A DNA stretch of 28,956 bases from Chrysochromulina tobinii (Eukaryota; Haptophyta; Prymnesiales; Chrysochromulinaceae): the NCBI GenBank assembly GCA_001275005.1, contig JWZX01001367.1:1-28956 (forward strand), given 5' to 3'. Within the stretch, counting starts at the first letter, position 1; each line of letters starts with the position of its first letter. The notes beneath the pieces were generated by a model. It was not told the DNA's origin. It ran no database searches and worked only from the letters and a program-made list of their open reading frames with translations. Made by a program: the position numbers and the translations under genes. Shown piece by piece: positions 1,418-28,196 of this stretch.

Positions 1418-1637
1418 GATAGCGGCACGCACATCACCCCAGGCCACGCCCCCCCTGCAGTCGGCCTCGTAGGCTCTCTTCGTTTGCGGTCGCCCTAGGC
1501 CACGCCCAGCCCCCCTGCCGTCGGCCTCGTAGGCTCTCTTCGATATCGGCACGCACATCACCCCACATCACCCCAATCCAAGCCCCCCTCGTCGTCGGCC
1601 TCGTAGGCTCTCTTCGATAGCGGCACGCACATCACCC
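1418..1637. repeat. Tandem repeat (60-74 bp units, ~3.5 copies) reaching the stop codon of the giant gene
   Basis: A 22-bp core is repeated without change at 1461-1482, 1521-1542 and 1595-1616, giving steps of 60 and 74 bp. A second core, roughly cggcacgcacatcaccc, recurs at 1423-1439, 1547-1563 and 1621-1637. The last copy covers the TGA stop (1632-1634) of the giant minus-strand gene and one more codon; weaker similarity (the 'aaggctacgccc' part) continues over the next few codons. Unit length varies through small insertions between the cores. Read on the minus strand the core would encode KRAYEAD, but there is no reason to think it is translated. The repeat probably forms the start of the 3' UTR. 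Confidence 0.85.
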
Positions 1638-2319
1638 AAGGCTACGCCCCTCGGACAAGAATCGAATCTGTTCGACGGTGGCCGTCGTCTGCGACAGCAT
1701 CTGCTCCATCATCTTTTCCTTCCTGCGCTGGAGTAGCTGCTGCTCCGTTTCGAGCTCGATTTTGACCTCGTTTTCCTCCCACCTGCGCAGCGCAACCCAC
1801 GAGAAGTGGAAGCGCTCTCTAATGGCCTTGTCATCGTACCAGTCATTGCCTTTGTCGTCGCGCTTGTGGGCGTACCAAAGCACACCGCCACCGTTGCCGC
1901 CGCCCGCCTCGCCCTTGGAATGCACCGCCACCGTCGTTGTATATTTTTCGACCAAGGCGTCCACGTCCTCCGCATCCCCAGTCACCTCCCAGAAGAATGG
2001 CTCGCGTAGGAAGAAGCCGAGCCATGCCTTGCGCAGTGGGCCCCGCCTGATCCACCTTTTCCAGCCCGAGCCAGAGGCACTGATACAACAAGGCACGCGC
2101 GCTTTTGCGAGGAGCTCGCCCAGCCCCCGAAACAGGTCGCCCAGCTGAAAATGGCGGCGCGCCCTGTCGCGGCCCTGATCGAGCACTCTACGTATCTCGT
2201 TGAAAAGCGTCTCGTTCTTATTCGGCTCCTTGCGCCATGCTTTGTTCATGGTGATCTGCTCCCAAAGCGCAGATTGCATGGAATGCGTCACGCGCTCCTT
2301 CCACTTTTCCTGGCATTCC
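1632..2319 (-). other. Cytoplasmic C-terminal tail after the channel
   Basis: About 230 residues follow span 6. They include a helical start (EECQEKWKERVTHSMQ), a basic amphipathic middle, a Gly-rich loop (GEAGGGNGGG), and a final Gln/Glu/Lys/Met-rich helix 'ELETEQQLLQRRKEKMMEQM' that could form a coiled coil. Polycystin-2 also has a coiled coil in its tail, used for assembly. No EF-hand or ER-retention signal is visible. The last residues lie next to the downstream tandem repeat. Confidence 0.7.
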
Positions 2320-5300
2320 TCGATGTGCACATTATACTCCTCGCTGATGATGGCAATGAAGATGTTGGAGAGCAGCGCGACGCCGAAGAGTATGAGGATG
2401 ATCCAGAACAGCGCTCCGAGGCCGCCCGACGCCTCGACGAGCACGTTTTGGTCCATATTGCCGAAGATGGCCGCGTAACTCGCGAGGATGGCGCTGCCGA
2501 GCTCGTCGAACTGCTGCACTTCGTTGCCAAAGGCGACGTGCGTCCCCACCCCAAGGATGCATGCAAAGAACCACGTGACGGCGATGAAGACGAGCACCTT
2601 GAACGAGAAGAGCGTCGTAAAGAAGGCATGCAGCAGAGGCCCGAGCTTAGGGATGTTCTCCGAGCGTCCGAGCAGCCGCAGCCACTGGAAGAAGAGACCG
2701 AGGGCCAGCATCGCGCGCTGCACGAGGATCAGTGTTGAGAGCGGCTGGAAGCAGCCGACGTACGCGGCGGTCTGCAAGTCGAGACCGTGCCAGCTAACCA
2801 GCGCGTGCCACCACAGGGTGCGCGCCGCGATCCACACGAGGAGCAGAGAGAGGCCGATCACATCGAGAAAGTTCCACACCGTTGAAAAGTACCCGACCGC
2901 TACGCCGGCCTTGCAGGCCTCGCTAAGCTCGAACGTCGCCTGTGCAAGCGTCCACGCGACAACGGTCGCCTCGCAGCCCACCATGATGCGCTCGCCCAAG
3001 TAGAGCGGCCAGTAGAGCGGCAGCAGCACCTTCATCGCTCGGGGTATCATGGTGCCCGACGGCGGCATCTCGACGGTCAGATGCACCACGACGGCGGCGC
3101 TAAGCGGCCGGTTGTACAGTGTGTAGTCGATGAACAGCGCGCGTGTGAGGCCATCCTCCAGCACCCCATCGTCGATTACCGCCTGCAGCGCCGCAGCGCT
3201 CTCGTTGGTCCGCGATGGGTGCAAGTCGAGCACGTAGCCCGCCGTGCCGAGAAACCAGCGGTCGCCCGGCCAGTAGCCAAAGAGATGGCGCGCCGCGTGC
3301 CCGCTCGCGTTACAGAACACACCATCCTCGCAGTGTGTGTACTCTCGCCCACTCGCGGGGCCTGCAAAGCTCGCGAGCGAACTCGGCGCGCTGCCTCCGA
3401 CAAACCACTTCCGCATGATCTCGAAGACCGCGTAGAGGTACCAATCATCGTCCGCGCATGCGCCGTCGGCGGCGAGCCAGCCATCGTGGCACGCCGCGGG
3501 ACCCGAGCGCACGAGGCGCAGCCGCACCGCGCCGAGCAGCTGGGTGTTGGGATCGACGTCGACGCCCTCTAGCAGGCCGGCGAAGAGCGGACCACCGTTG
3601 GGGTCAAGGAAGCCGTTCAGCCGTGCACCCTCGTTAATGCCCGAGAACTCCTCGCCGCTCACCAGCCCACCCACCTCATTCTGCAGCAGGAACGACATCG
3701 ACAGGCCAGAGCCCGAGGCGCGGCCCGGCCACGAGCCCACCCCTGTGGTGTGCAGGGCGACGGCGGTGAGCAGGATCAGGTAGATCAAGAAGCCAAACGC
3801 CTGCCTGGCCTCGTGCGCCCAGAGGAAGGAGCGCCGGTAGCGCATCGTCGAGTCCTGTTCGTTCATCAGGCCGAGAAAGCGCTCGGCGAGGAGCAGCGCC
3901 CTGCCGGCGTTCCTCTTCGACTTCTCGGACAGCGACTCGATCAGCGAGGACTGCTGGCCTCCCGATCTGCTGCCGTGAACTCGAGCCCCGACGCGTTGCC
4001 GCAGCCAGCCCAGCCGCCGCGCGTGGACCTCGACGGCGGCTGGATCGCTTGCCTCTTTTGAAGAGACAGCGGCGGGGCGGGCGTCCGCTTTCTTTAGGGC
4101 GCCCGACGAGAGATTAGGGCGCACGACGCGCTCGTAGTGGTGGCGGAGCAGCGCAAGCACAAAGGCGCAGGGCACGCGTTTCTCGTCCTTGATGATCGGG
4201 ACCGGGAATGCGCCATACTCGACGAGCAGCTCGGCGACGCGAAGGTGGCCGTTACTCACGGCGAGGGCGAGGGGCGTCCAGCCCTGCTCATCGGTCGCAT
4301 TGAGCAGATCGCTCTCGCTATGCTCGTGCCCGTTGCCAGTGAGGAAGCCTTCAAGCCGCAGCATACCAACATGGCCAAAGGCCGCGGCGTAGTGCAGCGG
4401 CAGGCGGCCGTGATTGTCGGCCTCGTGGAGGAGCCCCCAGCCGACGGCTTCGCCGTTCGCCGACTTGAGCGCGAGCACCTGTTTAGTCATCTCGACCATC
4501 TGGCTGCTCGCCTGCGCATACTCGATGCCGTCGCCGCGCGGGAGCAGCGTGCGACAAACGTCGTGCAGTAGGGTGCGCCCCTCACGGTCGCGCAACGATG
4601 TGAGCATCCCACACGTGCCCGCAATCTTGTGGCACGGCTGATTGGCCGTTGTGCCGAGGGCGAGCTTCCGGTACGCCAGGAGCGCAGTGACCACCGACGG
4701 CATGCCGCGCACGGCGGCTACCCGAAGCGCCTCGGCCGCCCCAGCCCTGTCAGCGACTCCTCCTTTGTCGAAGGCGCCTTCGACGGCCGAAAGGCCGACC
4801 GCGTCGGGCCACTCGGGCACCGTGAGCTTTGTGTCGACTGGCGGGACGTGGAGACCCCCCTTGGCCAGCTCGTCGCACGCGGCGGCATTGAGCGTCATTG
4901 AGAATGCCATCGCGCCTTCTCCATCGGTCCCCAGCTTGCCCGCCGCGTCGATCTCGAACGAGGGCCCGGCATTGAGCCGTCTGGCGAGCACCAACGCTGC
5001 TGTCTGGTGCCCCTCGTGTAGTGCTGCGAGGAGCACCGTGCGGTTGGGCACTGTCGGCTGCCCATCCGGCTGGGCACTGCCGGTGCCCACGATCGGCGGT
5101 GCCACGGCATTCCACGCGAACGTCGAGAGAAGATCCTTATAGAGCTGCGTATTAGGGACTGGCAGCGCTGCCGACCAGAGGTCCTCACGCAGGGTCACAT
5201 TAAGCGTCACATGCCGTAGCTTGTTGTCCGCAGAGTACAGGAAGGCCGCAGGATCCGGACGCGCCTTCTGTGATGGTTGGTCCGGATGGTTGATCGATGG

Positions 5301-8300
5301 GAGGAAGCGTGAGTCGCCCCACCACGAACTGTCCTGCGCAGCCTTCACGTCGGCTTCGGGGGCGTGCAAGTCGGCTTCGAGCTTCGCCTGATGAGGCTCG
5401 CTCGCCTCCGCGAGTTTCGTTTTCTTCTCCGCTGTGTCCAGGTTTGCGAGACGGCCCTGCTGGGCTCTTAATGTGACGGACCGCATGCCGAAGCCCGCTC
5501 CGCTGCCAACCATACGTTCGAGGGTGGAGAGGTTGGCTGTCTCCACGTCAGGCAGCAGCACAACCTCGAGAAGCGCGCACTGAGCGTCCTGGTCTGACAC
5601 GTACGACTTGCGCCCGCGCACGCCACGCGCCTTCTCGGCGCTGCCGTACGCGTTCCGATCGTCGATGAGCAGCCCAGCGAGCTCGTAGCGGGGCCGCGCG
5701 AGCTCGCGCCGCCATGCCTCTTTAGCCCCCCGCTCGTCTTGCGCCTCGTGCACGGCCTCTTTCGCCGCTTTCTCGGCGGCCTTCTGCTGCACTTTGTCAC
5801 ACCGGCGATCATCATCCTTGGTGTCATCCTTTTGCACCGGCATGAGCGATCGCACGCAAAAGGAGAGCGGCCCTCTGAAGAAGCGCTTGCAATGCGTTTG
5901 GCCGTCGACGAGAAGAAGCGAGCCAAAGTCGAGTAAGCACTCGGCCTCCTCCTTGGCGGCGGTCACGGCAGCCTTGAGGCTGAAGAGCAGCTTTGCACGA
6001 GTGTGCAGGTCCACTGCGTCCTCGTGCACCACCAGGCTGGACAGCGACGAGTTCTCGTTCTTCTTCAGCACCTCTGCGAGGGCGCCGAGCCCTTCGGCAT
6101 CGATGCTGTTGCCGTGGCCGAGGACAAGACGCGTGAGGGTATCATTGTGCGAAAGCGCCTCCGCGAGCGACGTCACACCCTTCGTACGCAGCCCCGTCTC
6201 AGAGAGCGAGAGGACTCGCAAATGGCTGTTGCTCGAAAGCGCGTCGGCGAGGTGCTCGGCGCCCCCAGGCCCGAGCCCGTTCTTGTCGAGGTAGAGCTCC
6301 TCCAGCGGCAGCCGCGCGAGCGCGTTGCCGATCGCCTGCACACCTGTCGCTGAGATCGAGTTGCGCGCGAGCCGCAGTACGCGAAGCCCCGTGGGCCCGT
6401 TGACGGTTGGTGCTGAGATGTTGCTACAGAGCGCGGCGATGCCCTCGTTACCGACATTGTTATCGGATACGTCGAGCTCTTCGAGCGCATGATTGTTCAT
6501 TGATCGCAGCGCCACCGCGAGTGTGGCGATGCCCTCCGCGCCCAAGGTGTTGTTGCTCAGGTCGAGCCGCTCCAGCTGAGTCTGCGACTCGATACGCTGC
6601 GCGAGTGTCTCAATGCTCACAGCGCGCAGCAAGGAACGCTTGCACACGATGCTCGAGACCACAACGGCAGGTGGTCGCCCTTCCACAACGGCAGGTGGTT
6701 GCCCTTCCAGCACATCAAAGATCGCTGCGATCGTGAGCGGCTCGCTCAGATTGAGCTCGCTCAGATTGAGCAGCGAGCAGCCCGTGATGAAGGGGCGGTA
6801 CAGCGCTTCGCCGAGTTCTGTGGGCTTGCCCTCGGCCCATAGCACGCCGGTGTGCTTGGCCTCTTCCATGGCACTTCTTGCAAGTTCCAATCTCCCCCCC
6901 TCCTCCCTACTCTGCTTCGTGAGCTCACCCGCAGCCGCCAGCACATCGCTGCGCGTCTTGTGGTTTCGCCGCGCTTCTCGTGGCGTCGCCGCACTTCTTG
7001 GAGCGTCGACGCTCGCCGCAGCACTCAAAACCGGGTTGAACCCTGAGGGCGCGTGGTTGAACTTGCCGCCATCGCCAAAGTTGACGGTTACACACATGTT
7101 CGCGTGCAGAGAGATGGCGGGCATCACGCCATTGAGCAGGAGGTTGTCGCGGATTCTTGTCGTATGCACCATTTTGCCGTTGTAGTAGTAGTCAAGGTGG
7201 CCGGTGGCGTCGGGCTGGATGGTGATCGCGCAGCCTACGACGCCGCCCGTGGCCCATTTTGCATTGTCCTCGTGCCATGGGATGGGCGGTGAGGGCGACG
7301 CATCGGCAGACTTGAAGAGGGCGTACTGGTGCAGCCTATCGTCCGCCTCACCCTCGTCGCCGCCCTTGGCCGCCTTCCCGCCATCCTTGTCGAGGTTGGC
7401 GCCGGCGAAGCCCCACGAGATCCGCTCGTCGCCCACGCCAACCATCTGCGAGTAGTCCCCTCTGAAGCGCGAGGTCGCCCACCCGAATGCTGCCGGTCCG
7501 CCCTCCTGCACCACCTTCTGACCAGGCTTGTCGTCGCTCTCGACGTACTCGCGCGCCTCTAAGTCGAAGACGTCGGAGGCGGTACCCGCGCCGCCGAGAC
7601 GCTCGATCTTCACCTCGTAATACAGCTTGCGAGGCACCTGGCTTGGCGGGTACGCAGTGAGACCCGGCGCTGTGAGCGAACCGAGAAAGGCCGTGCAGTG
7701 GACTTTGTACGTGTCGTCGAAGAAGAGAGTGTTGTGGCCGCTCGTGGGCAGCAGGCGCTTCGTCATCCGATCGATCGACGTTTCGAGCATCGGCGTCGCG
7801 ACGCTTGCGCCCTTTGTGATCGCGAGGAGGTTGCCGATTGGCCGGTACTCAGCGAGCTCGGGCGGCAGCTTGGCCGCCTGCAGCAGCTCGCAGTCGTAGA
7901 GTCGTACGATCGGCTGGTAGCAGTACAACGTGAGCGAGGGGATGAGGCCGCCCGCAAAGGCCACACCCTCATACGCGACATTCACGTACAGCTCCCCATT
8001 CTTGTCCTTAATTACGTAGCGGATCGTGCCGCGATCAACGTCTATGGCGCAGCCGATTAGCCCAGTGGAGAGGCCCTTGAACTTGTCGTCCCACTTGACG
8101 CGCTTGCCCGCGTGCCGGAGCAGGCCGGTGCGCCGTCGGAAGCCACCCACTTCGAGAGCCCACGAGTGCTTGTCGTCGCCCAGCCCTTGGTCGCCACTGG
8201 CCGGCTTGAAGAGCGTGTCGTGGCACCCAATCTGCATGTAGCCGAACGGATTGGTTCCCAGGTCGACCTCGAAAAACCACTTGCCGTGCGTCAGCAGCAC

Positions 8301-11300
8301 ACCGTCGAGCGAGACCGTCGGATCGCGCCAACAGTTCGGGACGCGCTTCAAGCTCCACTCGTTTCCGCTCGGCTCGATCTTGACGGCCCTCCGATTGAAT
8401 AAGGCGCGCATCTTGCCCGGAGCGTTGCTCATACGGAGATGCTGGAGCGTGCGCTGCTCCAGCACGAACGCGTAGACCGCCTTCACACCGGCCATGTTCG
8501 GCGGATACCGAAACGGCGACTCGCCGAGGTTGAAGAATCCGAGGAAGCCGCAGTCAATGGTGAGGGCGGGGCACAGGCCAATCTGGCCCCGCACGTCCAA
8601 AAAGGAGGCGACTCCGCCCTGCAGCTCGAGGCCGTTGCGGTAGAATCGCAGCTCTGCCTGCTTGCAGTCGATCAGGCAGCCAACCACGTCGCCATCCTGC
8701 CATAGATCCCCTGACGAGATCGGCGTGTTCTGGTTGGCGTGACGCAGTCCCTTCTCGCCCACTCCCCAAGAGAACTCGTCCGCGCCCACAGCCTTGCTCG
8801 CCGAATTGAACCGCTCTGTCACCACCCCAAAGATCGTGCCGCCCGACGCCGACGTCCGATGGACGTTCAGCTCCATGTACCACCTGCCGCTGCTCGGCCG
8901 AAGCAAGCAGCCGCGCGGGCAGACAGTGACAAACGAGCCCGAGCGCGTCCAGAGCAGGTTGGAAGCGTACAGCTCGAGCTGCGTGCCCGCCACCATTGAG
9001 AGCTCACCAGCCGTCTCTGGAGTCACGGCGATCAGGTGCGCCGACAGCCCAGCCGGGGTGGCTTCGGCGGTGGCCGGCGTCAAGACGCTTGAGTCGGCCC
9101 TCTCGACGGCGCTCCGCTCGCCACGCATACGCGCCTCGCGGACGACGGGTTTCCTGCTCGCGCTCGCCGTCGCGTCGTCCTTGCGCACCTCTTTGATGCG
9201 CTCCTCCAAGGTTGATTGCTTGCTGCCAAGGTTTTCCTCCTTCTTGTTGGCATTCTCCAACTCACAGAGCACGTCCCATTCAGTCGCCTTGTTGCCCAGG
9301 AGCGCATGCAGGTCCGTATTCAAGATGTCCGCTTGCGACGTGTCACGCCGCCGCCCCTTGTGCAGCTCCCAGAAGACCTTCGCGACATCCGAAGCCGTGA
9401 AGCCCAGCGACTTGAGGCTGGCGAGCAGCGCAAGGAGTTCTGACGACGCGAAGATGAACTCTGAATTCCAGAAGCGCAGTCGCACAAAGGTGGCGGTCAG
9501 CAGGAACCTCTCCTTGGCCGAAGTTTTCTCGCGCATGCTGCCGAAGTGCATGAGAAGCCTCTCTGGATCCTGGCTCTCGTCGTCCTTATCTAAATTATCT
9601 AAAAGGTACTGCTCGCTGATGAGCCGGTTGCCGAGGTCCACCGTGACCGCCTCGTCCTTCTGCTCCTTCGGCACCTTCTGCTCCTCCTGCTCCTCCGTCG
9701 AGCCGCCGCTCGTGCCGTGGCGGGACAGCAAGACGCCTTGGAGCGAGTACATCTCGATGATCGGATCTGAGCCCTGCTTTGTTGCGGCGGCCCGGGCGTT
9801 CGAGGTGCGCGGCGCGCGCTCCGAGAGCGCATCAAGGGAGGTGCGCGGCGCGCGCTCCGAGAGCGCATCAAGGGCTCGCATGATTCCCTCCGCCTCCTCC
9901 AGAGTCACAAGCACAAGAGAGGAGCTCGTAGGCGAGTGTATCACGCGCACAAGCACCTCGATGTTGCGCACACGTCGCGTGCGACTGCCTCGGTACTCAC
10001 GCGCTGCCCAGTTGGGCGAGAAGAGGAGTGACATTTCCTGAGCATTCTTCTCTGGCCACAACACGCCCTCGTGCGCCGTCTCGCCCTTCATCTTCAGCGT
10101 CTCGAAGGGTAAGAGCTTCTCGCGCAGCAGCGTTTCACGTTTCGACGCACGCAGAACGAAGATGGGGCACCATCGGAGCTGCTCGCGAATGATGTAGTCG
10201 TCGAAGTCGCCAAACTCAGTCTGCTGCTCGACTTTCTCTACCTGCTGCTGCTGCTCCTGCTCCTGCACCATCTCAGTGTTGAGGCCGCGCTCTTCCGCGC
10301 TCTTGCTGCTGCCCTTGCCTTTCGAACTTTCGAAGTCGCGCAGCTCTTTGAGAGCGTCCATCATGCGCTGAGTGATGAGGTAGTCCCCGATCTCGCTGAT
10401 GGTGCGCGTGTCCGTGGCGCCCGTGCTGCTCAGGATTGAGTCGAAGACCGCGCTCGGATCCTGTAATCGCAATAGCACACGCGAAGATACGAATTTCGCT
10501 TCGGCCGAATCAAGGTTTATGCGGGTGTGGACGCCGCCTTCGACTTGCAGTCGCTGCATGCGGTCAAAGTGTAAGGCGAGGTTGGCGTAGAGCGCGATGG
10601 TCTTGGTCACGTTCTCCGCATCGCTCGCCACAAATTTGGGTTTGGGCACGATCAGTAGCGATTCGGTCACGTCCTCGCGGTGCAGCCGGACGCAGCCCCG
10701 AATGACTTCGCCACTCTCGAGCAGGCGGGTTGTGTAGATCTCTTGAGGAGGGATCTTGTTGCCGCTTCCGTTGAGCTTGGGCGTCGGCCAGCCGAGGAGA
10801 TCCAGCCCGACGTGGTACACGGCCTCACGCTCCTCGCGGAGCTGCTTCGCCTCACATGCCTTGCGTTGTAACTCTTCGTTCCGCTCCTTCGCCGTCGAGA
10901 TCAGACGCTGGTCGAGTGCGAGGAGCCGCTTCGCGCCGCCGTGCACGAGATCCTGGATTAGCATGAGCTCGCTTATGATCGATGCATCGTCCCGTGCCAT
11001 TGCTGACACACCCTTGGCGTCTCGTTTGCCGATGCGCTCATCTCGTTTACCGATGCGCAAGTGAGTGCGCAGCATGTACCACGTCTCTTTCACCTCGTAC
11101 CTGCTGTTCTCGTCGCTGCCAGCCGCATTGCTGGTGAGCGGCGATGAGAGCTTGAGGTCAAACTCCTTGAGAATGCTCTCTCGAGTCTCCTCCTCACGGT
11201 CGGCCTGCTCGTCGCCCACCGTTTCGGCCGTTGCCTTATCCTCGTTGTAGTCCAGCCGAATGCGCAGCGCGCCCTCGAAGCACGTGCCAATTTGATGCGG

Positions 11301-14300
11301 ATCGTACCCCACCCAGCCAAACATCGCGTCGTGCGCGTACTCCTCGCCGTTCTGCTTGAGACGCCAACGCAGCATCTCGTACACGGTCGCGAACGCGCAG
11401 AATGTCTCGCTCACGTCGCACCCCTTGAACTCGACCATGAGCCGCAGATGCTCCTCCGCATTGACCCAGGCCAGCACCGAGCGGTCGTGGTCGGTGTTGC
11501 GGAAGAGCGCGCGGTGCTTCTGCCATTCGACTTCAATCTGCGTGTGCGCTTGCGCTTGCTCTTGCTCGTCATCATCAGTCACGACACGCGCGAGCGAACC
11601 GATGGCAGGCTGCTCGAACAAGGCGCCTGCCGCTTTCAGGTTGAGCTGCTCGTTGGCGTCGATCGAGGTCAGCTCGCGGTACACACCTTGAAAGAGCTCG
11701 GCGCAGCGCTTTGGGTCCGCAAACTCGCCGCGACCGCTGGGCTCAATGGCGGCAGCGGCAGGTGCCGCAGCGGCAGGTGCCACTCGAGATGGACGCTTCC
11801 AACGTGAACCTTCGCCCTCATCCCTCTTCGCCAGCACTTCACTCGCCTTCGCCGCCTCTTCTTTTTTGCATAGCTTGTCCAGGTCCTGCTGGGTCTTCGT
11901 GAACGCTTTCTTGAACGTGTCCGAGATCTCCGTGAACGCTTTCTTGAACGTGTTCGAGACATCCTGAAGGGCTTTGGGCCCACAGGCGGGCAAAAAGGGG
12001 TAGGCGCTTAGGTTCCGCGTGCACCAGAAGGAAACAGACGCGACGTGCGTGGTGAAATTTCTTGTCTCGTCCGCTTGTGCCGCCATCTGCGCAGCCACCA
12101 CAGCTTCGTCATTGAGCTGCGTGAGCTGGACCTCCTGGCGCTCGAGCTCTTTGCGTCCCTCGGACGTGATGGTGCCGTTGGTGAGCTGCGCCTGCAGCTC
12201 GCCAACACGCGCTCGCATCGCCTTCGCCTCCATCGCCTTGGCCTCCGCCTCGTCGACCGCGAGACTTGCAAGGAACATTTCCACCTCCGTCGACCACATG
12301 TCAGAGCAAGATTTGACAGTCTTGTCGAAGTAGGGATGCAGTCGGCGCACGACGGGCAGAAATAGCTCGCGCAGGTGCTTGTACGAGGAGATGCCGCCCG
12401 CCACACACATGTCAGCATGCGGCCCGCCCTCTTTGAGGGCGGGCTTCAGGCATTGCTTGATCGTAAAGCCGCCGAGTTCAGGCTCAAAACTTTTTCTCTT
12501 GAGCGTCGCGAGTAAGTCCTTTGCCAGCGGTCTTGGCCCAAAGTACTTGCCAGAGGCATGCAAATAGTTCTCGGTCAGCAGGCTGCTGACGCCAAACGCG
12601 TCCCACTCGGCCTGCGAGAATTTGGTTCGGCCCTCCGCGAGCGCCGCAGCGAGCTTCTCACAGCTCAGCTCGACGCCGCCCTCGGGCTTGTCCTGCACGG
12701 AGAGGAGCTGCCACTCCAGCGGGCTGAGGCTGACCCTTGCAAGAGCTTTCCACATCGTGTCATCCTCATTTGTCTCCTCTTTCTTCTCGCCTGTACCGTG
12801 CTGCTTATCCTCATTCTTTGGCTGTGTGCCTCCTTTTTCTTCTCGGTTCTGTGACAGTTGGCGACAGTTGGCGACCACTTTGCTCGGCTCGGTGAAGACC
12901 GAACCGGTGAAGAGGCTCTGCATCGTCTTCTGCGGGAAATGAAACCTGGTGAAGATGTACCAGTACCAGTAAGTAGACTCGTCGTGGATGTTCTTCAGGC
13001 ACTGATGGAGGTTACTCAACTCATTCTTGTCCATCCCCCCGGCTTTGCTGCCATCGGTCGGGTCGAAGATGGCGGACACGTCGTCCGCAACCACCCCCGA
13101 CCAAGATAACACGTTAATTGTAGCTTTGATGATTTGCTCAGGGGTAGCGTGGCCATAATCGCGCAACGGCGCGGGTGGTGCGTAGAGGTTGCGCACCAGC
13201 ACGTGAATCGCGTCCCGAGTGTTCTTGATATGCGCATACTGGCCGTCGTCGGCTGTCCTGCTCTCTTTCTCCTCCTCCATCTTGAGCTCTGCATGGAGGG
13301 CAAGGAGCTTCACGGTCAATGTGGGCAACTCCTCGATGAGCACCCCCGGCGCGTCGCTGTGAGAGAGCGAGAAAAGAGAGCTCGGCACGAGCGGCGCGTC
13401 GGCGGCGGCGCGACCAGCTCCACCGACTGCTGCGGCACCGCCGCCACCGCCACCATCGCCACCGTCATGAGATTCGCGCAGGAGCAGCGAGAGCGCGTGC
13501 TTGCGCAGCACGTTTTGGGCCTGCTGTATCAGCAGCTGCTTCGCCATCAGCATCTCGGCGTCGAGCGAGTTGCATATGAGCCAGCGCATGATCGCGTTCA
13601 GGTCGATCTTCAATTCGATGGGTGCTGGAGGCTTCGTCTCGACTGTCGCTGGCTGCGAGTCCAGGTCCTGCACAAAAGTACCGTCAGGCCTTGTTGCTGC
13701 TGCAGGCCCGGCGGCTGCCTTAGTCGACGCTGGCTCGTCCGGCATCCCTGCCTTCTTGCGGCGCGAAGTTTCCGGAGCATCCTTGCGAGGCGTTGCCATC
13801 GGCGCGTCAGGGTCGCGGCCCTTGTCAGACAGCTTGAAGAGGCCCAACGCCGGCCGCGCCGTGCTCTCTCCCGCGGCAGCAGCTTCCTCCTTCTTGTCCT
13901 TAGCTCCGCGCGCCGTGAGCGCGGCGATTCCCGTCGATGCCAACACTGGCCGTACAATCTCGCCCGCGGAGCTCGGAGGCTCAGCCGCGTCGCTCATGCT
14001 ATCAATGAGCTTCTCGATTTCTGGGGGGAGCACCACGGTGAGCGTTTGTCCCTCGCCCAGCTGCCGCATGCGCCAGCACGCCTGCGTGTGGTCGCGCATC
14101 ACCATGCCCTTGCCAATTGTCACCGCGGCGCGCGCATCAGCAGCCTGCTTGATGTCCATGCCCGTCGTGTGCACTTGGTCATAAAAAGTGAAGCGCTCGC
14201 TGAGCGAAATGCTCACGTTGGCGAGCGGCGTCGCCGGCCCGCCGCCTTTGAGAACCACCATCTGCCTGTCCTGCGGGTCGAGGAAGACCGCAGCCTTCGC

Positions 14301-17300
14301 CCATTTTAGGCCGTGCGTCAGGCAGTACCTGGCCACCTCCTCGTTGGTGAAGCCAGTGACGAGTGCGCCCGTGTCGATGAAGGCGTGGAAGGGTGGCGAC
14401 GCGAGCGCCACCCACAGGAGCAGGTCCTCCACGCTCCATGGGTGAGCGATGTCTTTCAGACGCTGGAGAGTCACGTACTTCGGCGACGTGAGCACGTTGA
14501 TCATGTTGGCGTCCGAGCCCTTTTGGACGCGAATACCTCCCTCTCGCTCCTGCATATCTTTCGGCACGAGGCTCGAAGGCGTGCCCGAAAAGCCAACGAC
14601 CCTTTTGAAGAGATTGGATCCGAGGTCCATGCCGCACGCCGAGAGCTTCTCGACCGCGTAGCCGCCGCCGCCCTCCACGTTGCGCTGCGTCAGCCTGAAG
14701 CAGTACTGGTCAAGGTAAAAGCAGATAAGTGACGGCTCTCTGTGGAGCAACTTGGACAGTTGCGCCACCTGCTTCTCGTCGCCCACCCGGATGTGGTTGA
14801 GCGCGAGCTCGCCCGCAGCTCCAGGAACGACCTCTTCTTCGCCGTGGGTGCGCTTCCACCGCTCCTGGCCCAGCTTGATCCAGCGGTCGAAGCGCACCCA
14901 CTGCGGGCGCTTCGACTCCTCGCCTGTTGAGCGGTCGAAGTCGAGGCGCTCCTGCTTGACAAGGGCGGCCATGTCGTAGCGCTCGCGCAGCCCCTCGATA
15001 CGGTACGCGGCTACCGTGAGTCCGATGACCACGTCGGGGTTGGAGAACTCAGCGGCACGCGACGGCGCGTCCTTGCCGACAAATGGGACGGCGAGCAGCT
15101 CGCGCGACTTGCGGCGGATCTCAAGGAGCTCCTCCCTGATCGGGTTTTCTCTCTTACCGGTACGCTGCTCCTTCTCATCGAACTCTAGCTGCTGGATGCG
15201 GATGGCGTCCTGCTCCTGCAGCAGACCAAAGTCGACGCGGATGCGCTTACCCAGCACGTGCGGCAGTAGTGAGACGAGATAGAGCTTGCACAGATTGAGC
15301 AGCGCGAGTGCCTGCTTGTCGACGATTTGGCGCATGAAGTCGTCAAAATCGCCCGGGTTGATCTCGCCGGTCGTCATGTACGTAACCACTCCATCCCCAA
15401 GGTCGAGCGCCCCCGAATGCGCTATCTTGGCCGCTTTCACTTCCTTCTGGACACAAGCCTGTGCCAAGTACCACAGACAGCACCACCGCCCAAGCGGCTT
15501 ACGCATCTGCTTCTCGTAGAATGTCTTCTGGAGCAGCACGAGGTGTGGCAAGCGCGCGATGCTGCTCTCCACACTGCCCGCCTCGATGCATTCTTGCAGC
15601 TGTTTGAGGATAAGTGGCGCCTCATTCGCTGGATCCTCGAGGTGGTGATGCAGCGCTTCTTCCTTGCGCCACGCGAGCTCCGCCATCGGGTCATTCTCGA
15701 GCGCGGCGTACACGCCGTCGAACAGGTGAATCGGCAGCAGCCAGCGCAGCTGGCCGTTGTCCTCGTCTAGCGCGTCCTCCTCTTTGCCGCCCTTGGCGCC
15801 CTCGCTCTCCGCCTCGGGGATGCGCATCAGTTGTAGCTCGACCTTCTTGCCGATGGGGAAGTTGAGCTCGGAGCGCAGCGGGTGCAACACCATGTCGACC
15901 TCGTCGATGAGTGCTGTCGCGCCTTGGAAGATGCACAGGATGCGCTGGATCACGTCCGCCTCGTCGGAGCGGGTGCGCATCGCCAACGCGATCTTGTCGA
16001 CGCTCGCCCGCTGCTGCTTCTCGAGCTTGAGCGCGCTCTTCGGCAGGAAGAAGAGGCGCGGTGCACGCTCCTCGAGGTGCATCCGATCGAGGAACGAGAG
16101 GAAGATCGACTTGATGGCGCCGGGCGTCGTGCACACGACGCCGCCCTGATCGCATGCGATGCTGAGCCGCCGCTGGATGCCGCGCAGGAGCTTAATCATG
16201 TCAGCACCTGCGGCCGCGCGTTCGAAGGCGAACGAGACGATGGGCTTGACGATGGTCGTTCCAAAGGCGTTGCGCATCACGCTGATGCTCATGTTGAGCA
16301 ACGCGTCCGGGACGATCTGCACGACCAATCGGGCGCCACTCGAAACGCCCGCCGTCGCGCTGCCGTCGCTGGGTGCGCTCTCGGACCCGCCGCCGCCGCC
16401 GAGGAGCAGCGCAAGCAGAGGTGCCACCACTGTGGTCTTGCCGGAGCCCATCAGGAACTGCTGGCAGCACGACTGCCCATTCTTCCACTGCTCTGCCATG
16501 CCCTTGATCATCTCCACCTGCTCTTTGCGCAACATAAACTTTGCGGCAAACTCAAACGCCAGGAAGCGCGGGTCGAAGCTCACACTCTCGGAGCTGCCAT
16601 ACTTGCGCACCACGTCGTCCGTGGCCCCATCCTGCTTGACAAACCAGCGTTTCGTGCGCAGGCTTGCCGCGAGCGTGCCCGCCTTTTGGGCAAGCACATC
16701 GATCTCTGCCTTTGTGGGCGGCAGGGCGTTCGATATAGCGCTTCCGATATCGAGCGGCACGCCGTTCCAGCACACCCCACGCTTGGTGCATCGGACCGCC
16801 TCCATCAATTCCTCCGCGCTCATCACATGCATGCCCGCGAGTAGTGCCCACGAGGCCGGGGAGATGGTGATGGAGGCGGTCTGGGTGGTCGCGGTGGTGG
16901 CGGGGTTGGAGGAGGTTTTTCCGGAGGTGGAGGTTAGGGCAGTGGCCTGGGCGTCGGCGTCGACGGTGGTGAGGTTGGTGGGGACGGAGGAGGGGATGAC
17001 GGTGGGGGCGAAGGCGGCGGCGGTCGTGGGGGAGGTGTTCTCGATCGGTTCATGCTTCACGCTGATCGCGCCGGTGTCAAAGCCACAGCCGTGCACCAGG
17101 AGGTACGCCGCGTGCCCCGCCTCCTCTTCACTGAACGAGCTCACCTCTTGCAGTTCCACCGCCAGCTTCTTAATCGCCTCCGTTAGTTGAATGAGCCCGC
17201 CAAGCGCCTTGAGCACGTCGCTGCCGTGCTTCCGAAGTGAGTGCTGCAGCAGCTCGGCCGTCGGCGCGCGAGAGGCGGGGCACGTGGCTGCAAAGCTCGC

Positions 17301-20300
17301 GGCGAGCAGTCGCATGCACATCTTGCTCGTCGTCGCCTCAAGGTCGTCGCAGCCGCCGGCACACGCGCCCAGTAACCGCAGCCGACAGCCACGAAGCTGG
17401 CATGAGATGATCTCGGCGTTGAGCTCTGGCATGCGCTTGCACAGCTCAGGGTCAACCATCCTCAGGTCAGCTTCCTGCGTCGAGGAGAGCATTGAGGCGA
17501 GTAGGCGCTCAAACGAGGGACGCACGGCACGCTGGCTGAGAAGCAGCAGCGTCTGCGTTGTGCTGTTGCTGTCAGCGCGGCTGCCGATTTCTTCCACGCG
17601 CGCCAGCGTCTGCGTCGTGCTGCCGCTGTCAGCGCGGCAGCCGATTTCTTCCACGCGCGCCACGCCGCGCGCCATTGCAGCCGTCTCCTTGCGAATCGTC
17701 TGGCTGAGCTGCACGCTGAGTCGCACGAGCCGCTCGTGAAAGCGGGCGAGCGCCTGGCTGGCCGCGTTCGGGTCGCTGACTGGTTTGCTTGGCGCCGTGC
17801 TTTGCTTTGCTTGGCGCTCAATCACTTGCACGTGGTCAGAAAGCTGCTCCAGCTCGATTTGCGGGAGCCCCTTTAGCTGCACCCTCGGCCGCGGGTCCTC
17901 CGCCTTTTGTTTCTGCTCGTATTCGAGGTCAACGACTAAGGATTCGACTAAGCGCTGGTCCGGCAGCCCAGGCGCTCGTCGACTGTCATACTCATTGTCA
18001 CCTGGGTCTTTCTTCTTCGGATAATCTTCATGGAAGCGCGTGCTCCATATATTCTTTAGCTCGCTGACAAAGGGCGTCTCGAGTTGCGACTCCGCCTCAA
18101 CCACCCTTGCCTGCTCCTCTGTGTGCTCGTCCGCAAACGCGTGGAGGGGTTCCTTCACCTCTTGGAGGGTGAGGCGAGCGTCGGCGGGTCGCGGGAGCTC
18201 CAGCAAGGCCGAAGCATTAGCACTTTCGGACACCTGGATATTCACTGGCCGGATGTCGTGGCGGCTCAGCTTCACGTAAACATCCTTCTGGCTCGTCGCG
18301 CGTTCGAACCTGCTCAACACCTGCTGCTGCTCCTCGGTCAGGGCGGCTTCTTCCTCGCCACCTTCTTCCTTGCCTCCTTCTGGCGCGCGTTCATCCTGCT
18401 TGACCCCCGGCGCCTCCTGATTGTCGTCATCTGCCACCGTCTCCACAGTGGGCGCCGCCGCCGCTGCCCTCTCCGCAGTGCCAAAATCGCCAAAAAAGCG
18501 CTGGGAAAATTGGCGGAGATCGGCGAGCATGCCCGTCTGCTGGACCTCGCCACCTTTTTCCTTGCCACCTTCTTCCTCGCCACCTTTTTCCTTGCCACCT
18601 TCTTCCTCGCCAGCTCCTTCCTTGCCACCTTCTTTTCCCACGCCAGCTTCTTCCTCGCGGAGCAGCGCCACCATTCTGGGCGTCTCGCGGAACAGGATCT
18701 GGAAGAAGGTAAAGGCTTGCCCCGCGTCCACGCGCAGCCCTGCCGTCGAGTCCAATGCCGCGACGTTGCGCGCCACTGGAAAGAGAGGCAGCGTATGCAT
18801 AAGCTTGCGGCCAGCGTCGAACTGCATCACCTCGACCAACACCGAGAGCAGCGCCACGAGGCCCTCGTGATTTTCGACCGTTGCATCGCCTTGGTCCACG
18901 AGCGAGCGCATGAGTATCTTGCAGAGCACCATCTTCAGCACGCTCAGATTCTCGGCGGGAACGGCTGCCGTAGGGTCAGAGGACGACGTTCTGCTCTCGT
19001 CGAGGTCGAGGGGGTGTACGACCACCGAGGGTATGATGTCAGCGCTCTCGTCTTCGTAGCTGTGCTCCATTCCAGGATACTGCTCTGCCTCACTGGGCGC
19101 GGTGGCCGGCTCAGGCTCCTCAGAGGTCTTATCAAAGGTCTCCGACAGACGCAGCCGACAGCGGCCGGTGACGAGGCCGTACAAGTACGGAAAGCCCATT
19201 TGCACGTGACGTTGCCAAAGACCATCATTTTGGAGCATCTTGAGAAGGTTGACCATCTGCTGGCGGGATGAGGTGGGCTCAGCTGTGGTCGGCGTGAATC
19301 TAAGTGCTTCAGGCCAACATTCTGTCTGATTGTAGCCCTCAACTGTCGCTGCCCTCGACCGCGAAGGCAGCTCCTTGGTGACATCGCGATCGGCTATCTC
19401 CTTGGCGTCCTTCTGGTTCGGAGCAACAGGCCCGATGCCCTCCGTCTTCGTCTTCGCAGGATCTTGCATCTCGAGGGGATCCGACGTGCCCTTCCGGCTG
19501 ACAGCAATCACGCGGAATGTGTACGAGACTTCTCGTTGCAGTACTTCCGCCATGTCGCCGCCGCCCAGCAAGAAACTCGTCGTGGTCTGCCACACGACGA
19601 CAGGCTTCTCGCCCCTCTTCTCCTTCTCGACCCCCTTCTCGCCGCCCTTGCGCCCCTTGCGCACCATCTCCAGCTCGCTCAGCGTATTGATCCACACGTG
19701 CGCGTCGCCAGATTCGGTACCCACCACTCTGTGCTCAATGATGTAGCCCTCCACAGGGGCTATCTTGACCAACACGGGCTTGTAAAACTGGCCGTCGCAG
19801 CCTTTGATAAACTGGCCAGCCTTGAGGCTCCCCACGCGAAACTTTTGCCACTCGGACGTGGTGAATTCGTTGTGCGATGGAAGCTCTCGACACAGTTCGT
19901 CGTTATGCAGCTCGAGATCCTCCGCGGCACTTGGCCGTGAGGTGCCGATTGCCTCCCACCACAAACCAGACGGTGTCTCGGCCGCCGGCTGGTCCCATGC
20001 GAGCATGATGCAATGAGTCTCGCGTCGTGCGATGCGCAATTTCATCGGCGGGCCCGGAGGTCCCTCCAAAAAGTGTGCTCGAGCGTTGGCCAGAATCTTG
20101 GGACAGCGCGAGATCCACTCGCGCCAAAAGACGCCGCCGTTTGCACGCGGTTCGAGCTCCCTATTCCGCCGCTGGAACTCGCCGCCGGCCGTCCGGGCAG
20201 GAGGGATGGGAAGCGACTCGGATGTCTTGTCGCTCTTGAGCAGACGCAGCTCGGCCTTGATTAGCTCCTGCCGCCCCAACATACCCAACCACTCACAGAG

Positions 20301-23300
20301 CAGCAGCTCGTGCTCAGGCTCGACGAGGCATTCGGGCGAGACGTCTTTGATTCCGATCACGTACCGCATGTATATTGTGCGTATGCTGTTGCCTTGCAAT
20401 GCGGCGATACTGACCGTACGCCAAAAGCCATTCTCGAGGCACGCGAGGATGAGGGGCATGATGCACGCGATCCCGTCTACCGCGATATGAGAGCTCTCCT
20501 TGAAGTTCAAGATCTCAACCACGAGGCCACCCTCGATCTGATCATCGTACGGCACGTCCTTGAACGCGGCCTTGATCAGTGGCGGCACGGCATTGTACTC
20601 GCGCGTCATGAGGCGAAGGTGAGCCAGATGGAGCGCGGCGGCCACCGACGTGATGCGTAGATGGCTACCCGAGACGTGCAGCGGGTACAGAAAGTAAGAG
20701 ACCGGATCGCCCGCGTGTGGATGCGCGTTGATACTGTAGACAGGCGTCCTGAACCCGACGTGGCTCTGCCGGCCGATGGCATACGTGTAGGCGAAATGGT
20801 AGTCCGTGCTCAGCTTGCAAAAGGGAATCAGTCTCTGTTCCAACTTGAGCAGTGGCAGCAGGAGAAAATACTCGTGCTCCGAGTTCGTGAGCCACACGCC
20901 GTGGCGCAGCCGTTGAATGTGCTTCTGCAGCGCGGGCTGCTCGCAGTCTTCCACGAGCCACATGCTCGTGAGCTCGTCGCACATGATACGCAGGCTCGGA
21001 TCCGACGCCCCTGGCTCCCACACCATCGTCGGTCGAAACGTAAGTTCGTGGCGAGGGATTTGAATGCTGTGCAGCCTGCAGCCCTCGCCATCAGTCGGTT
21101 CGGCCGCGTCCGTCCAGAAGAGCATCTCGGTCTGCGGCACGAGGCGTACGAGCACCCGCAGCAGCCGCTGTGCCGTCGAGTGCGGAGGGCAGCGGAGCAC
21201 GTTGAGCAGCGTGAGCACTGGCGGCTCGTTGTCGCGCTGAAAGTCACGCCGCACGGGGTCGAAGCGTCGGATTCGGCGCACGGTTGCAGCGTTGCCACTG
21301 CTATCGAGCACAATGTGCAGTGCGAAGCCGTCGTACCACTCTTTACGATAGACCGATTTCATGCTCTTGCTAGCATGGATTTCCTCATCGTCGCGCGACT
21401 GGAGCGCGGCCGTCATGCGATAGCCCCACAGCGTGCGCGGCCCCGCGAGCCAGAATTCGAAGGAGCGTGTCAGCACACCCGGTAGCAGCCCATCGACGAG
21501 CCTGGGCGGCACGTACTGCAGATGCAGCCACAACTCGTCCTCGGAGAGGTGGGACAGATTGGCGCTACAAAGGGCTTTCATGTCAGCGGTCCGCTGCACG
21601 TCCGGGCGTGTGCAGCGCAGGCCCACATGTCGCAGGCTGGAGCGCTGTTGAGTGCGGGGATCCACGTCAGGGTCCAGGAGTTCGCCGGTTGGTTTGTAGA
21701 GGATGCCAAAGAGAAAGCCGCCCTCGTGGCGCAGGCCGGGGAGGATGGGCTCCCCGTTTGAACCCGCTTGCGCCAGGTAGCACGTGTGCCCAAATAGGCA
21801 CGCCTCCTTGTTTGAGGAATACACGCTGAGACGCGAGAAGGCCTGCTGGCCACACGGCACCAGCGCACGCACGATGAAGTCCGGACGCGCACTCTCTGGC
21901 TGCGCTGAGGGCGGGCCGACCTCGTACAGCATGCCGGGGTTGCCATCGGCATGGTCGCCAAAGGCGGGCATGTACATGAGCAGCGGCATCTGAGCGTCAG
22001 GGCAGTAGAAGAGCAGCAGCTTCTCGAGCAGATCTTGCAGGTCGCCCGGCTGGGCGCGCGTGTATCGCAGCTTGCGCCAGAAGAGAAGCATCCACGGCTC
22101 GCGCGAGGGAGCGTCGGCTTCGGCCGACACGTTGCCACCATCCGTGGGCTCATTTGCTGCCGTGCGCTCGGGCTGCAGCACGGAGACGGGCTGAAAGAGG
22201 CGGCCACAGAAGCGCAGCCCCTCCTTCTCTTGCGCGAGCAAGGGTGGTGGCAATCCCGGAGTGAGCGCACGCTCGTCTAGCCCGCCGAGGATCCACGGGC
22301 CGCTCGTGGAGGAGGATGCTGCCTTGCTGCCCTTCACCTCGCGACGTCGCTCGCGTTGCTTGGCGAGCGCGTCGAGGGCCCCATGGTGGAGGAGGTGCGC
22401 GAAAAGCTGACGCTCTGCAGGCAGCGGCAGCACCTGCTCGGGCAGTGACGCGGCCAGCGCTTGACAGTTGGCAACGTCAACGAGGAAGCAGAGCCCATTC
22501 GGCTTGCGGCTCACTCCGAGGTGCGCTAGCGTCTCGAGGCAGCGCGTGCGCAGGGCGGCGGCGTCCTTCTTGTCGATGTGAAGATCGCGCAGTGCGTCGA
22601 TCGTGCGCGAGAGAACGCCACGCAGCTCGGGCTCGCTCCCGCAATGCGCGGCGGAGGTGGCGCCTTCGAGCGCCTCCAGCTCCTCACCCAGCTTGGCGAG
22701 CTCCTGACGTGCCCTGATCGCGTTGGGCAGCTCCGCCGGCTTGGTCTTGTACGCGAACGCGTCGATGAGCGCCCCATCGGTCCGGCGCTTGATCTGAAGC
22801 CATTCGCCCTCCTCATTGCTCCCCATGGTCGAGCAGAACATCGCGCCCCAGCCCATCGCCGCCCGGAAGTCCTCATGGCTTGCGACCTTCTCCGGCACTG
22901 GGATGAGCGCGCGGCCGTTGATCGTCACCTCGCCCGTCTGCAGCGAGACCCGCAGCTGGTTCTTTCGCTCTTCGTAGATCCCGCCGATCGCCATGTTCTG
23001 GAGGCGCTGCCGCTCGCGCCTCCCGTCGGCCTTGAGCGACTCGAAGTTCGAGTCGAGGTACGCGCGTGCGCGGTGGTAGTCGTTGTCGCTCGCCTTGAGC
23101 GCCATGCGGCAGGCGAACAGCGCGTCGTCCTCCTCGCCGTCGTCCTCCTCGCCGTCGTCCTGCTCGCCCATGCCCTCGTCAGCGTCGAAGGGCTTACTGT
23201 TGGCGCCGTGGTGGACGGCGAGCAGCTGACGCGCGCTGCCCTCGCTCACCGGCGCCTGAGCGGTGAAGTGGAACCCGCGCTCGCCGATGGAGGCGTCGCT

Positions 23301-26300
23301 CCGGAAGTGGACGAAGACGTGATCGTCCGGGACGACAAGAGCGCTCACGCCGTTCACCCCTGGCCAGCCCGCGCGGCCCGAGTAGCGCCGCTCGCCCCAG
23401 TGGCTTGTGCAGCTCGCATCCTTGTAGAAGGTGACATAGTCGTTATCCTGCTCGAGCTCGGTGTCCTCGTGAAAGGTGATTACGATGCGGGATGCGTTTG
23501 GGAAGCGCACCTCGCGGAAAAATCTCGTTGACGGCGGATAGCGCTGCGTCCGCTTGTCGGCCGTCTCGTGCCATCCCGGGCTGTGGACGCTCTGAGAGCA
23601 CGAGAGCGGTTGCGCTCCGAGCGCCTTCCACTTGTCAGTCTTCTGCCGCGCGCGGCCGCCGCCCCCCGCCTGCACGAGCTCGCCGCCTGACTGCTCGCGC
23701 TGCGCGACGCGCACAATGCGCTCGAGCATGCCGTCCAGCTTCGCCGCCTCGTTGCCTCGCTGCATGCGGCGCGCGCACGCGAGCACCGTTGAGCGGCTCT
23801 CTTGGATCGTCGCGTACACGTTGGGGAGTAACTCGGCCGGCGCGGCGTCGTGGCAACCCTTGAGCAGGTACATCAGCCAGGCCGTGTCGACGTCCACCTC
23901 TTCGATGGACGCGGATCTCATCCACTGCGCCACCACCGCGAGCGAGGGCGAAATAGCCATCGCGGACTCGGCATCCGAGGCGGGGGATTTCGAGGCGCCC
24001 TGCTTCCTTGCGATGGCGTCGACAATAGCGTCTGGCCAGCCGCGGTGCAAGTTGCCGCGGATGAGGATGAGGTGCGAGTGGAAAACCACCGGCGCGAGCG
24101 TCTTGTTGTGCTGCTCCCCCGACGCGTGCTCGACGAGCCAGTGCTCAAGGAGCGAGGCGGCGTGGACGAGAAAGTCCTTGCGCAGTGCAGCCAGGTGCTC
24201 CGCCGTCTCGTCGAGATGGGCGGCGGCCATTGTCTTGTGTGTCTTGTGTGCAGCGCGCTTTTGCTCACTTAGGCTGAGGCTCGGATCCTCACCCTCCTCC
24301 TCCTCCATGTAGAGTGTCTCGAGCACCGCGAGCGCCGCTGCCTCCACAGTCGTTGCGAGGCGAACGAGGAACAGCAGCAGCGCCACGTACGACGAGGACG
24401 AGGGCACGACGGAGTAAGAGAGGCCCGCTTTGCACAGGCGCAGCGTCGCGCGGAGCACCACCGCCGGCCGAAGGCGCAGCTCCCACGCCATCAGGCCGTG
24501 GGGAGTGCCGAGGCAGATGTCACGCTCAGTGCGCGGATCATCCTCGCGGAGGGGCTTGCGCTTCAGTGGCACCGATAAATCGCCGGCGTCGACGCTGGCG
24601 TCGCAAAAGGCTTCGGGCTGCCAGAGCAGCTTTGTCAGGATGAGACACAGGGAGTTGTCGAGCAAGCAGCGCGCCACCTTGTCGACGAAAAAGTCCAGCA
24701 CGAGGGACAGCGAGACAAAGGGCGCGGCGAGCAGTGTGAGGAGGCTCTCCGCCTCCTGCTTCGTCAGGCTACGGAGGAAGGTCTTGGGCAGGTCACGCTT
24801 CAGTAGGATCTCGTCCTCCGTTAAACTCACATGGCGCAGCCGATGTGGGATCTCGTTCGGCTTCTTCTGGATCGCCTCCGTCTCCGCGCGAATCTGCGTC
24901 TCCGTCTGAAGTTGACACACGAGACTGGACTGCACGCCCAGACCATCAAGTCGAAGGGTCCGCAAGTCGGAATCTAAGCCGTGCAAGCAATCGCCGTCGA
25001 TGCCAGACCCGCTGCCTGTCATGAGGTAGCGTCTACTTTTCCCAAACCAGACGGCGACGATGATTTTGTCAGCGCCATCGTTTGTTCCCACGTCATTGCA
25101 GAAGATGCCCGGAGAGACGTCGCGCGGCAGGAAAGTCGTCGTGCTCCTGACTTGTTTCATCTTTGTACATGCGACCTTCCAATCGACTCCCGCCTTAAAG
25201 AGGATGAGCATATCGCGCAGCGCATCGAACTCGGGCACGGGCACGTCGAGAAGGGCCCACTCCTGGGTGAGCTGGCGATACGTCTTAAGTGCGCCCGTGC
25301 CAGCTAACGCATTCTTGATCGGCTTCTGCCTGCTCTCGTGCAGGTACTTGGGTGGTCTAATGTCCTTGTCGTCGAGGTCGTGAACTTGGATGAGATCCAT
25401 GACGATCTCTTCGATGCCGTCCTCTCGCGCGCCACCCCTGCTGCCCACGTTGAAGTTGGTCACCCGCCCGTTTTGGCTACTCTGACCCTTTACGTCTTGG
25501 TCCTTCTCGGCGATCACGCTGAATTTCCCCATCAGCACGAGCAGCTCCTGTCCGCGCTCCTTGGTCTTGGCCGGCGAAAAGTCCGACTCGGCACCAAAGT
25601 AGCGCAGCGCAGCGCGGCGCGCGCGCAGTGCGCGCGGGCGGCGGACAAAGAGCTGTGAGGCGAGAAACTCGAGCGAGAAGTCGAAGAAGGACGAGGTGCT
25701 GAGCGCAAAGAGGCGCCCCGGCTTGTGCACACCGTTGAGCATCTCTGTGAGCGCAAGCGGCTTGTCGGAGGTCCTGCGGCGGAGGACGGCATCAAACATC
25801 GCATACAGCGCTGCGAGTGTGGCGAGGTGCTCGCCCTGGCACGCTGCACCACCGCGGCCGTGCTGCTTGCTCTCCGTGCGCTCGTGCTGTTGCACTTGGG
25901 AGGTGAACAATGCGGCGAGGTAGTGCTCCGTGAGGGCCTGCAGCTGCGCCAGTAGCAGCTGCTGCTCGTACCGCGTGAAATGGTTGCGCTCGCTCGGCGC
26001 CGTTGCCTCGCCCAAACCGGCAGCAGTGGCACCGCTTGTCGGGTTGTACAGGTCGTTCTTGGAGCCGCCGCCGATGCGCCACGGCAGCGGCAGCGGCAGG
26101 AGGTGGCAGACGGAGTGCTCAATCAGAGCTTCCACCATGTGCGTCGCGGCGAGCTCCTCGAGGCCGTGGCTGCCCTGCCGCAGCTCGTCGCAGATGACGA
26201 CAATCAGCTCGATGGCCTTTGCGAGCTTGGCGATGCTCCGCAGCCGCCCCGCCGGACGATAATAGACGCCGTTCACGTTGAGGTAGTGGAACGAGCGCGC

Positions 26301-28196: not shown

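Follow-up and report, generated by a model that had tools for sequence, protein, structure and literature searches.

Chrysochromulina tobinii, a haptophyte alga, carries on one contig (C531; GenBank JWZX01001367.1) a giant minus-strand open reading frame (ORF) whose predicted product combines a DUF3638/DUF3645 motor and a polycystin (TRPP) channel in a single chain. The window analysed here is that entire contig, 28,956 nucleotides long, and the genome searched comprises 53.15 Mb in 2,253 contigs; the published genome is larger, at 59 Mb and 3,472 contigs according to the accessible part of its description (PMC4580454). The frame is open without interruption from 28337 to 1632 (8,901 codons from a GTG, plus the stop), and its first ATG, at amino acid (aa) 48 and nucleotide 28196, yields a protein of 8,854 aa and about 975 kDa. 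These coordinates match exactly the uninterrupted frame at 1632..28196 of the original prediction, which had also estimated the chain at about 1 MDa. When the bases of the window were shuffled 200 times, the longest open frame averaged 281 codons and never exceeded 452, against the 8,902 observed, and the other five frames contain 105-303 stops each across the same stretch. Taken in blocks of 500 codons, the G+C content of third codon positions (GC3) is 0.70-0.87 throughout the ORF.

Domain inventory of the window protein

A Pfam scan, in which domains were called against gathering scores and some segments were also scanned alone, gives from the N- to the C-terminus DUF3638, DUF3645, the C-terminal lobe of a guanidino kinase, three SPRY domains, leucine-rich repeats (LRR), ankyrin repeats, the polycystin TOP domain and the PKD channel (Table 1). 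DUF3638 scores 53.9 bits (cut-off 31), DUF3645 49.4 bits (E 2e-13; cut-off 25), Polycystin_dom 41.2 bits (cut-off 23.6) and PKD_channel 33.6 bits (E 3.4e-8; cut-off 22.4); the three SPRY stretches, Ion_trans, LRR_6 and Ank likewise exceed their gathering scores. This bears out the core of the original prediction, which had named the DUF3638/DUF3645 pair, three SPRY domains, ankyrin repeats and a polycystin-2-like channel. Its smaller modules fared less well: the CUB-like domain passes its cut-off when its segment is scanned alone and falls below it in the whole scan, five LRR_6 stretches rather than six LRRs pass alone, the proposed FN3 domain is sub-threshold (15.7 against a cut-off of 25), with FN3 annotated in a relative (P0003, below), and the segment called UBA-like matches no Pfam family at E<=1. 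One domain had been missed, the ATP:guanido phosphotransferase C-terminal domain at aa 5549-5690 (8.1e-11). No ubiquitin-binding domain rises above its Pfam cut-off in the window, and the Pfam scan (E<=0.1) contains no peptidase family that would mark a deubiquitinase; the module at aa 2260-2720, which has no clear fold match, might yet be an unrecognised one (for aa 2260-2690, the AlphaFold2 model has a mean predicted local distance difference test score of 64.3 and no clear fold match in the PDB).

Table 1. Features of the window, with their coordinates and the evidence for each.
Feature	Position	Strand	Extent and evidence
Giant protein coding frame	1632..28196	-	8,854 aa from first ATG; frame open to 28337; ~975 kDa
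CUB-like domain (borderline)	23265..23564	-	aa 1592-1691; 22.2 bits segment alone (cut-off 21.4), 14.5 in whole scan
Conserved module upstream of motor	20268..21560	-	aa 2260-2690; invariant W, Y, H, R, E positions (14 rows)
Mobile ~60-aa domain, copy 1	19779..19958	-	aa 2794-2853; inside FN3-like stretch (by eye)
Walker A MGSGKT	16434..16451	-	aa 3963-3968; alignment of 26 rows
DUF3638, predicted first RecA-like lobe	15969..16574	-	aa 3922-4123; Pfam 2e-14
DEVD (DExD motif II)	15894..15905	-	aa 4145-4148; 26-row alignment
DUF3645	15015..15110	-	aa 4410-4441; Pfam
Motif VI-like RMRQLGEGQ, end of predicted second RecA-like lobe	14046..14072	-	aa 4756-4764; 26-row alignment
Mobile ~60-aa domain, copy 2	12552..12719	-	aa 5207-5262
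Possible guanidino kinase N-lobe remnant	12348..12473	-	aa 5289-5330; not significant alone
Guanidino kinase C-terminal lobe, R280-position arginine replaced	11265..11693	-	Pfam, kinase structure matches, alignment
Three SPRY domains	7053..8885	-	best is the first, aa 6485-6593, 2.8e-29; far end of span by eye
Leucine-rich repeat segment, 5 LRR_6 stretches	5898..6800	-	Pfam 3.7e-20
Ankyrin repeats	4206..4451	-	best stretch aa 7963-8044; 4.5e-13
Polycystin TOP domain between S1 and S2	3039..3545	-	aa 8265-8433; 1.8e-10
Polycystin channel core with pore and S6	2331..2963	-	aa 8459-8669; Pfam; PKD2L1 structure E 9e-25

Short direct repeats (GTCGGCCTCGTAGGCTCTCTTCG-like) lie at 1430-1630, immediately downstream of the stop of the giant ORF, and positions 2-643 of the plus strand hold the end of a convergent neighbouring ORF with weak, sub-threshold ankyrin matches.

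Recurrence and rarity of the join

A search with the motor region against about 5.8 billion proteins returned 60 proteins, including P0001, which is the window protein cut short, and P0057, C. tobinii Ctob_000046. Three diverged proteins are colinear with the window protein from motor to channel: P0002 (6,206 aa; block identity 25-37%), P0003 (7,745 aa; 22-40%) and P0056 (7,876 aa; 21-30%). Only the SPRY-to-channel part is matched in P0062 and P0063, with alignments that start at window aa 6144 and 6282 and 39-42% identity in the main blocks. That one chain joins a DUF3638-type motor to a TRPP channel, as had been predicted, is thus seen again in three proteins; an assembly error whose parts are always separate in relatives had been named as the contrary outcome, and in these three diverged relatives the parts are fused.

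The motor-channel join is nevertheless rare. Channel domains are annotated in three of the 60 homologues, and in the genome searched DUF3638 occurs at 11 places (one of them on contig C2239) and PKD_channel at 51, with both on C531 only, the contigs being short. More common companions of the motor are thioredoxin-like modules (30 of the 60), EF-hands (23), RanBP zinc-fingers (11) and WWE domains (9); ubiquitin or poly(ADP-ribose) modules are annotated in 20, some of these giants carry the label 'ubiquitinyl hydrolase 1' in UniRef (e.g., in Leishmania and Chromera), and P0004 and P0013 have an annotated SPRY domain besides the motor.

Whether the fused proteins share one origin was approached through both ends of the chain. 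In the motor tree, the window protein, P0002 and P0003 are grouped with support of 100/100; the motor of P0056 sits on a long branch, unresolved in one free tree and placed with channel-less rows on weak support in another, and constraining the tree to hold all four fused proteins together improves it slightly and is not rejected (p-AU, from the approximately unbiased test, 0.53). When 14 channel sequences were compared, that of P0056 matched best, itself apart, the channels of the window protein and its relatives P0002, P0003, P0062 and P0063 (five sequences, E 2e-23 to 2e-17); eight further PKD sequences of C. tobinii gave E 7e-7 at best. The channel tree places these six related channels on one side (91/93, not starred). 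Motor and channel trees are therefore compatible with a single ancient fusion, from which the four fused proteins may descend, without proving it.

A mobile domain of about 55-65 aa, with the pattern W..IG....G.EV....L..AL..G...F...EL..F...L..D.F..AG, stands at differing places in the window protein (two copies), P0002, P0003 and P0064. Searched with one P0002 copy, the C. tobinii genome gives 36 matches at E<=0.01, and the domain has the look of an inserted module of coding sequence that is spreading through such genomes.

Motor, channel and guanidino kinase

The motifs of the motor (Walker A, DExD, GFSGTPS and R-x-R...GQ) are intact in an alignment of 26 rows, one of which, P0013, is misaligned around the DExD block; the earlier claim that all motor motifs are kept accordingly stands. 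The motifs are of the superfamily 2 (SF2) type, and the motor is predicted to be a two-lobe machine that hydrolyses ATP. A moderate-confidence structural model resembles the SecA, DinG and Snf2 motors, which are tied, and Foldseek gives it no PDB match at E<=0.001. The giants with PF12340 and PF12359 share this motor and its conserved motifs, and 57 of the 60 have no annotated channel. Two further relatives of the motor were noticed: L034, on a contig of an Anaerolineaceae metagenome-assembled genome and possibly a eukaryotic contaminant, shows 33% identity over query residues 5-878, and L035, from Legionella jamestowniensis, shows 26% identity over the second lobe only.

The channel is most similar to polycystin-2 and PKD2L1, with which it is homologous through the TOP domain, channel core, pore and S6. 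At E<=0.01 all 16 distinct PDB sequences that it matches are polycystins (best PKD2L1), and its filter region, FGNMD, lines up with LGDFD in PKD2L1. By hydropathy, S1 and S3-S6 lie above the threshold used and S2 below it. The pore-S6 block aligns in P0002, P0003, P0056, P0062 and P0063, and its conservation makes it probable that the protein does work as a channel.

The guanidino kinase C-lobe (PF00217, 42.1 bits, cut-off 22.4) resembles the phosphagen kinases in sequence, with matches to structures of arginine and creatine kinases at E 3.3e-11 for the best. Its putative N-lobe partner is much fainter: aa 5289-5330 scanned alone reach E 0.09 and 13.7 bits against a cut-off of 25.7, and aligned to the creatine kinase N-lobe give an i-Evalue of 13, which is not significant. 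We take the substrate- and phosphate-binding arginines of Limulus arginine kinase to be R124, R126, R229 and R280. In an alignment read by eye, an R229-like arginine is present in the window protein, P0002 and P0003; the R124 position is Ser in the window protein and Arg in the other two, none of the three has Arg at the R126 position, and at the R280 position the window protein and P0002 have Glu and P0003 has Asp. Because the R280-position arginine is replaced in all three proteins, the domain appears decayed and catalysis unlikely. It may instead sense a ligand, as an analogy with TRPM2 would suggest: the NUDT9-H domain of that channel binds ADP-ribose, reportedly without hydrolysing it (PMC4974056). 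The domain is annotated in P0001, P0002 and P0003 and lacks annotation in P0056, which suggests either a later gain in one branch or a loss in P0056. Elsewhere in the same genome, a separate open frame (L025, on G000:C821) has the order LRR, guanidino kinase, LRR (LRRs by eye), keeps the GTGMR arginine and lies about 6 kb from a PKD_channel match; guanidino kinase, LRR and polycystin parts may be meeting repeatedly in C. tobinii.

Proposed gating, alternatives and significance

The anatomy that the evidence supports best is that of an ATPase and a scaffold continuing, by way of ankyrin repeats, into a TRPP channel. We tentatively favour, at somewhat short of an even chance, the reading that the window protein is a TRPP cation channel whose large N-terminal part unites the motor, the decayed guanidino kinase and a scaffold of SPRY, LRR and ankyrin modules, and whose gating is controlled by the motor or by a ligand. 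As in polycystins, four chains would form one pore and the N-terminal part would face the cytosol, a placement taken over from polycystin topology. A substrate bound by the scaffold would engage the motor, the ankyrin repeats would relay ATP-dependent movement to the membrane helices, altering channel opening, and the former kinase would sense a nucleotide or phosphagen in the manner of NUDT9-H; control of gating by ATP or ligand is an inference, as is the ATP-driven or ubiquitin-linked control that the original prediction had proposed. Several observations weigh against this scheme. The hydropathy threshold is passed in several N-terminal stretches as well (e.g., aa 1196-1226 and 1309-1340), the filter stretch LLGNSY of P0056 diverges from the other channels, and the motor finds no PDB match by sequence at E<=10, in addition to the negative Foldseek result. 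Moreover, motor and channel lie about 4,000 residues apart, and any coupling across that distance is conjecture.

The motor could instead act independently, with the channel mainly tethering a DUF3638-SPRY machine to the membrane and supplying local Ca2+ that regulates the motor rather than the reverse, an arrangement that we consider only slightly less likely. The preponderance of channel-less homologues (57 of 60, counting the truncated P0001) indicates that the work of the motor needs no channel, and EF-hands are frequent among the 60; EF-hand loops between the motor and SPRY-aligned stretches of the fused P0002 and P0056 and the unfused P0004 suggest that Ca2+ sensing is ancestral and that feedback on the motor may be, and P0013 has two EF-hand loops. 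However, no canonical EF-hand loop was found in the window protein, P0003, P0062 or P0063, which disfavours Ca2+ feedback by this route here, counts against the gating scheme too, and stands alongside the conserved pore-S6 block as an argument against a mere tether. It is unlikely, in turn, that one ORF yields two or more products through internal transcript ends or proteolysis, as in the cleavage undergone by polycystin-1. The models that cover only the distal part would fit such a split, namely P0061 (window aa 5621-8901) and the alignments of P0062 and P0063, as would GC3 in 40-codon steps, which falls to 0.65-0.68 at the SPRY/LRR join, under the neighbouring steps. Yet P0061 begins inside the guanidino kinase domain, a position that suggests the edge of a contig or of a model rather than a natural start, the 500-codon block around the join has a GC3 of 0.77, like the rest, and other low steps occur nearby (0.62 at 7201 and 0.68 at 7281, in a range of 0.62-0.90 over aa 7001-7400). 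An intron-like in-frame insert in P0002 (residues ~993-1031, a protein-level reading) also speaks for the split: it interrupts Walker A, and the public model runs through it with no stop. Genes of this kind are consequently not straightforward to read from DNA alone, and in-frame introns may hide in giant ORFs of this kind (C. tobinii genes average a single intron each, in the accessible part of PMC4580454). Against it stands the same order within single models of three diverged proteins, and it is this order in P0002, P0003 and P0056 that also makes an assembly or annotation artefact fusing two adjacent genes very unlikely, indeed exceedingly improbable. The draft was built from 454 and Illumina reads, as stated in the accessible text (PMC4580454); P0001, from a 20.8-kb contig of the Joint Genome Institute, equals window aa 1-6685 at 99.985% identity and overlaps P0061 (four contigs, the longest 19.2 kb; 100% identity), so that together they span the window protein, in assemblies that are possibly not independent.

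Considered as a channel under motor or ligand control, the window protein differs from each of the systems it recalls. Polycystin-2 and PKD2L1 are not known to carry a motor, a guanidino kinase or SPRY/LRR parts. The TRPM chanzymes (TRPM2, TRPM6/7 and the choanoflagellate TRPM2) likewise place an enzyme or former enzyme in one chain with a TRP channel, but they belong to another TRP subfamily and have their enzyme C-terminal to the channel; the Pfam scan of the window protein (E<=0.1) shows no TRPM family, and no TRPM chain is among the 16 PDB sequences. The oomycete PKDRR is a protist polycystin channel that has additional domains in common with RyR, and for which the accessible part of its description mentions no motor or SPRY array, some members being said to have further domains (PMC7399828); unlike PKDRR, the window protein has no RyR domain in its Pfam scan (E<=0.1).

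No account of a motor-channel fusion was found in the literature searched by title and abstract, a scope that leaves out most subscription journals and preprints, and the earlier claim that no DUF3638-TRPP join was known holds within it. Neither DUF3638 nor DUF3645 occurs in any title or abstract found, and 'polycystin' does not occur in the main text, so far as accessible, of the C. tobinii genome paper (PMC4580454). We read the window protein as a new TRPP channel-enzyme architecture, undescribed within the literature searched; most of the channel-enzymes known so far belong to TRPM. A bolder version, which we consider quite improbable, is that it represents a first motor-channel, in which an SF2-type motor (possibly SecA-like and polypeptide-pulling), a polycystin Ca2+ channel and an energy sensor derived from a phosphagen kinase would convert engagement of a protein or ubiquitin conjugate into a Ca2+ signal. 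A conserved TRPP channel bearing a motor would offer a lever on the role of the widespread DUF3638 ATPase and, through the same architecture, on the gating of protist polycystins. For haptophytes, a major group of marine algae, the decayed phosphagen kinase within the channel suggests, furthermore, that Ca2+ entry may be tied to the energy state of the cell.
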